Translations under genes and position numbers: made by a program | Shown here: positions 14,863-17,168 of the stretch, piece after piece | How the letters are laid out: each line of letters starts with the position of its first letter | Numbering within the stretch: position 1 is the stretch's first letter | From: Rippkaea orientalis PCC 8801 | GTDB taxonomy: Bacteria > Cyanobacteriota > Cyanobacteriia > Cyanobacteriales > Microcystaceae | Direction of reading: 5' to 3' | DNA: 64,000 bases | Assembly: GCF_000021805.1 (NCBI RefSeq) | Contig: NC_011726.1 | Location: 1,302,001-1,366,000, forward strand | Notes under the pieces: model-generated | Seen by the model: the letters and a program-made list of their open reading frames with translations, nothing else | What the model was told of the DNA's origin: nothing | The model's database searches: none

Positions 14863-15234
14863 TACTTAGTGTAGCATAGTCAGGGCATAGGATGGCAGGA
14901 TTGTTCCTGCCAAAGTGAAATTATTGACTTTAATTAAAGTTAAATCATCAGCGTTATCTGTCATTTGAGTGTTGACATTTATTGCATGATTTGTGGTATT
15001 GTAACCTTAATATAGAATATTGTCGTGCAACTGCGATACAATTGTCGTTAGGCTTCTTGACTTCTGAGTACAAGTAAATAATACAATTCAAAAATGTCTA
15101 TGTAAATTCAGTTTTGTGTACAACTATGTTTAATATTCTTTGACCACCAGAGCTTGAGATCATTTCCGTGTAAAGTTCCTTAGAAGAGCCGTGTGCGATT
15201 GTAGTTCTAAGTGAAATATAAAAGGAGGTATCTA
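14863..15234 (+). other. Gene-free interval with hairpin and possible promoter
   Basis: A hairpin GGCAGG-ATTGTT-CCTGCC (14894-14911) after gcvH may terminate it weakly; there is no T tract. TTGACA at 14972-14977 followed by TATTGT at 14997 (19-bp spacing) is a possible promoter for the secreted pair downstream. A GTTAGGC heptamer at 15047-15053 matches the integron core-site consensus and is discussed with the attC-like sequence at 16385. No open frame is convincing. Confidence 0.4.
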
Positions 15235-16086
15235 ATGAAAACAAATTTTTTAAAGATTAAGCAATTTTGTGTTTGCTTAATAATAGTTTTGATAATCTCG
15301 TTAACCTTTCTTGGAGAAGCTCAAGCTTATCAGGGTTATAGAACAAATAAGATAGGTCAGGAAAAATTCAATGACATGAAAACTCGAGTTTCTAATTCTC
15401 ATCGGAGTATCAAAGAGTACAAAGCTTCAGATGCTTATAGAGAAATCACAAATGCGTTAGGTAAGCTACAGACAATTCGTACTCTGGTAGAGCGAATCGA
15501 TAACGTTGATAAAGTTGTTGATGAGGTTGCCAATGGACTCGACGAAATTGCTTTTGCTTATGAAAAAATTGCAGATTTTGGTCCAGAGGTCATGCGACAT
15601 TGGAATGAGAAGGTTTACCTTTTAAAGGACATTGATGGACAAACTTTAAAGACAGAATCAGACTTGCTAGAAGAAATCACAGAGCTTGAATCTGTTAGTC
15701 AATTACGCCGAGAGCAGCTTGATAATATAACAAATGAAATAGAGATAAAGAAAATTAATGTAGATCTTAAAGCTAATTCTTCTCGCATCAATTCTTTGAA
15801 AACACAAATTGTAATTTGGGAAAAATTTCATCAGACGCAGGAAAAGTTACTAGGTAAGTTGCAGACACAGCAAGGACAGCTTGATCTGATGATTTACATA
15901 TTAGATGCTAATGCCAAGGTGTATCGAGAGGCGGCAAATACTGCTAGGCTCGCATCGAGTGCAAAGTCTGCATTGCAGGAACTTGGGGACTTGGCAGATC
16001 TTCAAGGTATTGTTATTGAGTTACAAGATAGCTGGTCAGATCTCGATGATATTGTTAATTCGATCGGGAAACTGGAATTGACATAA
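15235..16086 (+). CDS. Secreted coiled-coil protein of unknown function
   Basis: A 283-residue protein. The start is certain: a near-perfect AAAGGAGGT lies 6 bases before the ATG. Residues 1-31 form a classical signal peptide (basic start, hydrophobic CVCLIIVLIISLTFL, then GEAQAYQG). The mature part is almost wholly helical, rich in heptad patterns, Lys, Glu and Leu, with no Cys, so an extended coiled coil in the periplasm or outside the cell is likely. Codon use and richness in AAA, GAA and TCG-type codons look unlike the flanking genes. It is followed 11 bases later by another signal-peptide gene. The family is not recognised. Confidence 0.75.
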   Translation: MKTNFLKIKQFCVCLIIVLIISLTFLGEAQAYQGYRTNKIGQEKFNDMKTRVSNSHRSIKEYKASDAYREITNALGKLQTIRTLVERIDNVDKVVDEVANGLDEIAFAYEKIADFGPEVMRHWNEKVYLLKDIDGQTLKTESDLLEEITELESVSQLRREQLDNITNEIEIKKINVDLKANSSRINSLKTQIVIWEKFHQTQEKLLGKLQTQQGQLDLMIYILDANAKVYREAANTARLASSAKSALQELGDLADLQGIVIELQDSWSDLDDIVNSIGKLELT

Positions 16087-16097
16087 AGTATGAAATT

Positions 16098-16424
16098 ATG
16101 AGGTGGATAAGATTCATGAGTGTTCTAATTCGTTTGAGTTTTACATTTTGTACGCTTTGTTTGATATTTTTACTTGTAAGCTGCCCAATTGCTTATGCAA
16201 AAAGCGGCACAACTTGGAAAGACGTAGGCGCAAAATTTCTTGAATTAGAAAAAGCTCGATCACAAGCTATAGAAGCAATTAGCAAAAAGCCTGAAGCTCC
16301 TACTCTAAATTTAGATACTTCCGTTCCAGCAAGTGAGGAAGAAAGCAATTTAGAAGCTTATCGTTCCTCTGAATTAAATCAGAAGCCTAACAAATCGATG
16401 AAGCGGACGGACGAAAAATCTTAG
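16098..16424 (+). CDS. Small secreted protein ending in an attC-like tail
   Basis: A 108-residue protein. A hydrophobic N-terminus (VLIRLSFTFCTLCLIFLLV, then SCPIAYAKSG) is a signal peptide; LVSC could be a lipobox with Cys as the lipidated residue. The start may be this ATG or the internal ATG seven codons on (MSVLIRLSF). The body is short, charged and Pro/Glu-rich. The last residues, KPNKSMKRTDEKS, are not native-looking. The same phrase appears at the ends of unrelated genes next to integron attC sites, because the left arm of attC is translated in this frame. It probably forms an operon with the coiled-coil protein upstream. Confidence 0.6.
   Translation: MRWIRFMSVLIRLSFTFCTLCLIFLLVSCPIAYAKSGTTWKDVGAKFLELEKARSQAIEAISKKPEAPTLNLDTSVPASEEESNLEAYRSSELNQKPNKSMKRTDEKS
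16385..16413 (+). other. attC-like half site (integron recombination site remnant)
   Basis: GCCTAAC (16385-16391) matches the RYYYAAC core of attC sites. It is followed by AAATCGATGAAGCGGACGG, very close to the usual left arm (AA-TCG-TGAAGC-GACGC). The complementary right arm ending in GTTAGGC is missing downstream, so if this is attC it is broken. A palindromic repeat begins 27 bases further on. Confidence 0.45.
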
Positions 16425-16439
16425 TGCGATCGCTGACTT

Positions 16440-16469
16440 GTAGGGTGCATTAACGAAGTGTAATGCGCC
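16440..16469. repeat. Interspersed palindrome GTAGGGTGCATTA-ACGAAG-TGTAATGCGCC
   Basis: A stem-loop of the widespread cyanobacterial type GGGTGCATTA...TAATGCGCC. It separates the secreted pair (plus strand) from the Uma2 gene (minus strand), so it may terminate both. Confidence 0.65.
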
Positions 16470-16538
16470 AATCTTCTCATAAATCATTGAACCCGACTGA
16501 CACAAGATGAGCGGTAAGAATCGCAAAACTATGTTTTC

Positions 16539-17168
16539 CTAGCAATTGAGGTTAAAAATTTGCTCTGGGGATAGCTTGAATTGGGGAAAAGTAGGAGAAA
16601 CAATCGGACAATTATCGATAAAAGGAGTCATCTGATATTCTCCGTCAACCCAATAACAAATAAAAACCGTAGGTTGTTTGGGGTTGCCGATCAACTTTCT
16701 CGGACCCAATGCTGCATAATCAATAATCCAATATTCCTCAATGCCCATTTCTTCATAATCTCGAAGTTTGTTGTAGTAATCGTCACGCCAATTGGTTGAA
16801 ACCACTTCAACAATTAATTTAATTGACTCACAATTCTGGATAATTGATTCACTTTCCCACCGAGGTTCTGCCCTAATTACTTCTTGATTCAAAATGATAA
16901 TATCGGGTTCGTATCCTGATTTTTCGCCTTTTGGTTTAACAATGGATTCTCTAGGAATAGTCCAAATACCGCCTTTCCCTATCTGCCTAATTGTTATCAA
17001 GAGTTGTTCGATCAAAAACCCTGTTAAATTAGAATGTTTCCCCTTGGGTTTAGGCATTTCAATAATCACTCCCTCGTGCAGTTCGTAGCGAACTTGGGCA
17101 TTTTCAGGATACCAGTGAATAAACTCATCAAAACTATATAATTTGGGTTCATTGTGGGCTTGAATCAT
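16539..17168 (-). CDS. Uma2 family endonuclease-like protein (DUF820)
   Basis: A 209-residue Uma2/DUF820 protein with all usual marks: LYSFDEFIHWYPE and RYELHEGVIIEMP near the N-terminus, the acidic strand YEPDIIIL around residue 87, IVEVVSTNWRDDYYNKLRDY carrying the Glu and the Lys, and GIEEYWIIDY. It is only distantly related to the copy at 683-1267. The stop of this gene and the start of the kinase gene upstream are 3 bases apart on the same strand, so the two may share a transcript. Confidence 0.9.
   Translation of the reverse strand: MIQAHNEPKLYSFDEFIHWYPENAQVRYELHEGVIIEMPKPKGKHSNLTGFLIEQLLITIRQIGKGGIWTIPRESIVKPKGEKSGYEPDIIILNQEVIRAEPRWESESIIQNCESIKLIVEVVSTNWRDDYYNKLRDYEEMGIEEYWIIDYAALGPRKLIGNPKQPTVFICYWVDGEYQMTPFIDNCPIVSPTFPQFKLSPEQIFNLNC

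Follow-up and report, generated by a model that had tools for sequence, protein, structure and literature searches.

The window analysed here, a stretch of 64,000 nucleotides of the closed 4,679,413-bp chromosome of Rippkaea orientalis PCC 8801, contains a pair of genes for exported proteins (15235-16424) that is most probably a fossil integron gene cassette or else the final stretch of a short array in decay. Integrons of Cyanobacteria are already known, and the locus is a decayed example. That the pair came in as an integron cassette had been proposed in an initial annotation made from the letters of the window, and the proposal is supported by the assignment of the attC-like end of the second gene (attC-A) to a family of cyanobacterial sites, by a second attC remnant downstream (attC-B), by the other attC sites and the integrase pseudogene (intI) of the genome, and by the patchy distribution of the pair. 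All the sequence elements that the annotation named are present, namely GTTAGGC at 15047, gene 1, the end of gene 2 and GCCTAAC at 16385 (Table 1).

Table 1. Features of the window and integron-related features elsewhere in the genome (coordinates without a prefix are window positions).
Feature	Coordinates	Strand	Description	Remark
GTTAGGC	15047..15053	+	candidate left cassette boundary, R'-type core site	weak
AAAGGAGGT	15221..15229 (about)	+	near-perfect Shine-Dalgarno sequence of gene 1	sequence
Gene 1	15235..16086	+	283-aa exported protein, hydrophobic N-terminal leader	ORF
Gene 2	16116..16424	+	102-aa putative lipoprotein, LVSC lipobox	ORF
attC-A, left half	16385..16426	+	R'' 16385-16391, L'' 16397-16404	right arm missing
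Palindromic repeat AGTGCGATCGC...GTAGGGTGCATTAACGAAGTGTAATGCGCC	16423..16471	+	replaces rest of attC-A
attC-B	16475..16531	+	left two-thirds; R'' decayed to TTCTCAT	right arm not recognisable
PIN + short-ORF cassette	L115 872-1587 = own genome C3:~4,093,000-4,093,716
Right-half attC relic	C3:497,684-497,768 (L097 7685-7769)	minus
intI pseudogene	C3:499,620-500,068 (L097 9621-10069)	plus		next to grpE
Palindromic repeat copies near attC	window 16423-16471; L115 1616; L116 1392; L097 8121

The DNA at the end of gene 2, GCCTAACAAATCGATGAAGCGGACGG, consists of the heptamer GCCTAAC followed by AAATCGATGAAGCGGACGG, and agrees with an R'' box of the form RYYYAAC and an L'' box with its extrahelical base (GCCTAAC AAATC GAT(G)AAGCGG(A)CGG). 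The extrahelical positions are G 16400 and A 16407, and the half-site includes the start of the variable terminal region. The element covers the final 12 codons of gene 2 in the same orientation, as expected for the attC of a cassette. What the initial annotation had described as nearly an attC left arm thus turned out to be a real attC left half, with homology that runs past the classical arm to position 42 of the site.

An exact search for the pattern GCCTAACAANTCGNTNAAGCGGACG (22 fixed bases) on both strands of 84,980 genomes, or 257 Gb, gave matches at seven loci where about 0.03 would be expected by chance. Each of the seven proved to be a complete attC whose right arm matches, and the two cyanobacterial ones (L048 and L053) resemble the window beyond the left arm too. 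With up to three mismatches allowed, matches were found in 12 of the 386 genomes of the phylum, the strain's own included; most of the others are attC sites of about 86 nt, and a few have a broken right arm. The 13 sites that were aligned share R'', L'' with the extrahelical G, the second extrahelical A, L' and R'. A covariance search for attC, which the annotation had recommended, recovered the window site: the model, built from 13 cyanobacterial attC sites with the window left out, detects 16385-16455 at 28.3 bits (E 3e-6 in the window, 2.5e-4 genome-wide). Scored over 42 attC positions, attC-A reaches 52.6 bits against 9.7 bits for the runner-up in the window, a comparison in which the left arm is not independent evidence, because it served to collect the sites. 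Positions 27-42, which were unused in choosing the 13 sites, give 14.9 bits by themselves, the top score in the window, and with a matrix of 63 sites they rank fourth of about 128,000 window positions. Moreover, the local alignment score of attC-A is 60 against a shuffle maximum of 26, and its identity to several cyanobacterial attC sites is up to 90%. Judged by its sequence, attC-A belongs to a family of cyanobacterial attC sites that are about 86 nt long. Hardly any weight can be given to the alternative that a C-terminal coding sequence merely resembles an attC arm by chance: single heptamers like GTTAGGC are indeed common, with seven in the window, but the outcome of the exact search at all seven loci, the distance between the 42-position score and its runner-up, a second attC 90 nt further on, and the other attC sites and intI pseudogene of the genome all contradict it, and the covariance model together with the extension test already refutes it.

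The right arm of attC-A (L' and R' GTTRRRY) is absent, as the annotation had noticed, and the palindromic repeat stands in its place from about 16423. Therefore, attC-A is a remnant and not a functional attC. Directly behind the repeat lies attC-B, the runner-up of the 42-position scoring, which is identical to the complete attC of the own genome at C3:4,093,630 at 43 of 57 positions (75%) in a gapless alignment; the alignment score is 58 against a maximum of 30 in 2000 shuffles, and the blastn E value against the fetched loci is 3e-5. Folding predictions gave no attC-like bottom-strand hairpin for 16385-16471 or 16474-16560, whereas complete sites fold, and the corresponding z-scores are -0.5 for attC-A with the repeat and +0.6 for attC-B as against -1.6 and -1.7 for two complete sites.

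The search for further attC sites and an intI gene in the genome, also recommended in the annotation, was productive on both counts, with two significant further attC sites and a right-half relic near intI. The covariance model finds a complete attC at C3:4,093,630-4,093,716 (47.4 bits) and another, decayed at its right end, at C3:3,041,444-3,041,531. The complete one follows a PIN-domain gene and then a 69-aa ORF, for which it supplies the final codons; the decayed one is 77-85% identical to other cyanobacterial attC sites, including some at loci with an intact intI. The half attC relic is not significant in the model (E 3.3 genome-wide), but over the 52 nt of its right part it shares 92% identity with another attC. 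The intI pseudogene lies about 2 kb from this relic, in the usual divergent layout that an intact cyanobacterial integron (L101) shows as well. Compared with the intact 346-aa integrase of a cyanobacterium from another family, it has 91% identity over 96 aa and 72% over 53 aa, lacks residues 56-147 and has lost its C-terminus. The pseudogene, about 0.82 Mb from the gene pair, is the only trace of an integron integrase in the own genome, where an intact one was not found. It is very improbable that the cassette is still mobile through an integrase in trans that recombines attC-A or attC-B. In favour of such mobility, attC-A retains R'', L'' and both extrahelical bases; against it, the missing right arm leaves the predicted bottom strand without an attC hairpin, and an intact integron integrase was not detected in the genome.

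Several side observations concern these other integron traces. A PIN-domain gene followed by an ORF of 60-70 aa is a widespread cyanobacterial integron cassette in which the attC encodes the end of the second gene; it is also present in L108, L121, L124, L125, L126, L133, L138 and L142. The half attC relic near intI is fused to a fragment of a PIN gene. In four genomes of the same family, from four species of one genus (G025, G029, G030 and G035), there is an open 134-aa frame that matches positions 8-105 only of the integron integrase, possibly a retained N-terminal domain rather than a product of ordinary decay.

The products of the two genes both open with a hydrophobic leader, and residues 20-23 of gene 2, for which a further in-frame ATG lies upstream at 16098, form the lipobox-like LVSC. 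Gene 2 ends in KPNKSMKRTDEKS, of which the last 12-13 residues are encoded by the attC-A remnant. Gene 1 is predicted to be all-helical and coiled-coil-like, on a single-sequence AlphaFold2 model that is itself unreliable (pLDDT 42.5). The near-perfect ribosome-binding site that the annotation had seen, AAAGGAGGT before gene 1, is there, and from this strong site of its own the pair is probably still translated into an exported helical protein and a small lipoprotein. A composition unlike that of the neighbours, which had been claimed as well, did not hold up: at 36.2% G+C, gene 1 is only the 14th lowest of the 52 ORFs of the window, below gcvH (46%) and near the 38% of the Uma2 gene. The pair matched no family of Pfam, NCBIfam or PHROG above cut-off, an Rfam scan gave no match, and the weak matches in PADLOC, Pfam and PDB resemble coiled-coil artefacts.

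Relatives of the pair are scarce. Neither gene has one among 49 genomes of the same family or in the plasmid collection, and gene 1 has none in the genome contigs or the viral collection. An order-wide search of 391 genomes with the two proteins joined end to end as the query gave a clear match in two, the own genome and that of a distant cyanobacterium (G502), and only a weak partial match (E 1e-4) in one more. The distribution is thus patchy, with none of the 49 family genomes and one other of the 391 order genomes carrying the pair. The gene 1 homologue of G502 has 284 aa and is 40% identical over 274 aa; it is followed by a lipoprotein-like protein of 67-69 aa with the lipobox LLTGC, in which the TW..V..KF.ELE segment of gene 2 is conserved. 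The adjacency of the homologous genes in G502 indicates that the window pair is a real two-gene unit.

The G502 homologue of gene 2 has no tail and ends about 40 residues before the end of its counterpart in the window, and there is no attC directly behind the G502 pair, the nearest lying about 4.9 kb downstream. The annotation would have counted relatives with an unrelated C-terminus against a cassette. Such a relative was seen this once; since a gene 2 that ends before the tail fits an extension encoded by attC, it is no argument against the cassette. We do count against the cassette that the stretch from gcvH to gene 1 carries, apart from the heptamer, no trace of an attC, that the G502 pair has no adjoining attC, that an empty-site relative was not found and that composition gives no support. 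One alternative is that the attC remnants are real and the pair is not their cargo, having come in otherwise or being native, with a deletion or the repeat fusing gene 2 to the leftover attC of a lost cassette. The shorter gene 2 homologue of G502 without an adjacent attC and the weak left boundary of the cassette favour this alternative, which we nevertheless consider unlikely: attC-A has the expected place and orientation, reaching slightly into the last gene from its 3' end, exactly the arrangement that the PIN cassette shows in the own genome and in its relatives, and an exact complement of R'' is present upstream.

That complement is the heptamer GTTAGGC at 15047. Of all places in the intergenic region upstream, ATTGTCGTTAGGC at this heptamer agrees best with the final 13 positions of attC and, with 12.4 bits, ranks fourth of 127,976 window positions; a match of this quality in that intergenic stretch has a chance of about 1-2%. 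GTTAGGC or its complement occurs in seven copies in the window, and no attC homology extends further upstream of 15047 (score 20 against a shuffle mean of 21.9); nor was an attC remnant found upstream of gene 1, on the gcvH side beyond the heptamer, or between the genes. From its sequence, GTTAGGC at 15047 may be a plausible left boundary, although a statistically weak one. Of the annotation's view that the pair is framed by core sites, the attC left half behind the genes stands and the upstream heptamer taken alone is weak; the exact left boundary at 15047 and the sharing of one cassette by both genes are uncertain. In the comparison of the locus with close relatives, which the annotation had suggested, the pair was absent from the 49 family genomes; no relative that keeps both flanks, and hence no empty site, was found, because the same-genus genomes differ downstream of gcvH.

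On the preferred reading as a fossil cassette, an integron integrase would have inserted a circular cassette of two exported-protein genes and an attC by recombination at the cassette core site G^TTRRRY. It would have gone either into a former array or into an attG-like secondary site of the genome, downstream of gcvH; attG sites are reportedly a subject of work by Loot and co-workers from 2024. The left junction may be the heptamer at 15047, and downstream there would once have been one further cassette or more, carrying the attC type of the strain itself. Mobility would have been lost later through truncation of attC and the death of intI, and the reading frame of gene 2, which now runs into attC-A, would thereby have gained the tail PNKSMKRTDEKS. 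As the right arms are gone and the single strand cannot form the hairpin on which the integrase acts, the cassette would be frozen.

The palindromic repeat at the break has 13 further matches in the own genome and is scarce: 464 kb of sampled sequence, the window among it, hold two copies, of which one is that at attC-A. Its boundary, taken from aligned copies, places its first bases within the stop codon of gene 2. Each of the four attC loci of the own genome has a copy of the GCGATCGCYGATCTTGTAGGGTGC repeat no more than about 400 bp away, at distances of 0, 29, about 80 and about 350 bp, and behind the repeat at one of them (L115) the end of the short ORF is duplicated with a bare GTCTAAC box. 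Near other copies in the own genome, attC remnants did not exceed the control. It is conceivable, though rather improbable, that the GTAGGGTGC repeat prefers attC as a landing place and so locks cassettes in the chromosome; with only four loci, the closeness may simply reflect gene-poor accessory regions. An AATCTT target-site duplication around the repeat was considered and finds no support in the other copies.

In the phylum as a whole, an attC match is present in 88 of 386 genomes and an integron integrase over the family cut-off in 22, of which 19 also have an attC match. The attC matches far outnumber the integron integrases, and the added value of the locus lies in this and in showing that truncated attC halves can be recognised. 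Given that truncated sites are probably missed by tools that need both arms, the past reach of cyanobacterial integrons may be underestimated. Furthermore, the decay of an integron can be traced here within one sequenced chromosome, and the remnant points to a route by which genes without close relatives, and odd C-termini such as PNKSMKRT, could enter a genome.

A literature search found no paper that describes the locus. Boucher et al., as cited in PMC2426708, reported integrons from Cyanobacteria, an attC model specific for Cyanobacteria exists (PMC8352920), and pseudogenes made up about a third of the intI genes in one survey (PMC2426708). Like the attC sites of cyanobacterial chromosomal integrons, the window site has R'' and L'', two extrahelical bases, a variable terminal region and a position at the 3' end of the cargo gene; unlike them, it has lost its right arm, with a palindromic repeat at the break, its integrase is dead and about 0.82 Mb away, and its cargo is two genes. 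Clusters of attC without an integrase are known as CALIN (PMC9024848), and insertion of cassettes at genomic attG sites is among the reports cited in PMC12444791. As in CALIN and in single attC or attG cassettes, attC remnants are scattered here over the chromosome, singly or in twos and far from a functional intI; in contrast to these, both window sites are truncated. Fused cassettes (PMC4670013), in which a gene is linked to the following cassette through an attC that is partly lost, share with the window the partial loss of attC at the end of a cassette gene, but the break is followed here by a repeat and not by the next gene. Finally, the cassette of a PIN-domain gene and a short ORF differs in its complete attC, its probable toxin-antitoxin function and its unrelated proteins, and yet has the same arrangement as the window, two genes followed by an attC that supplies the final residues of the second.
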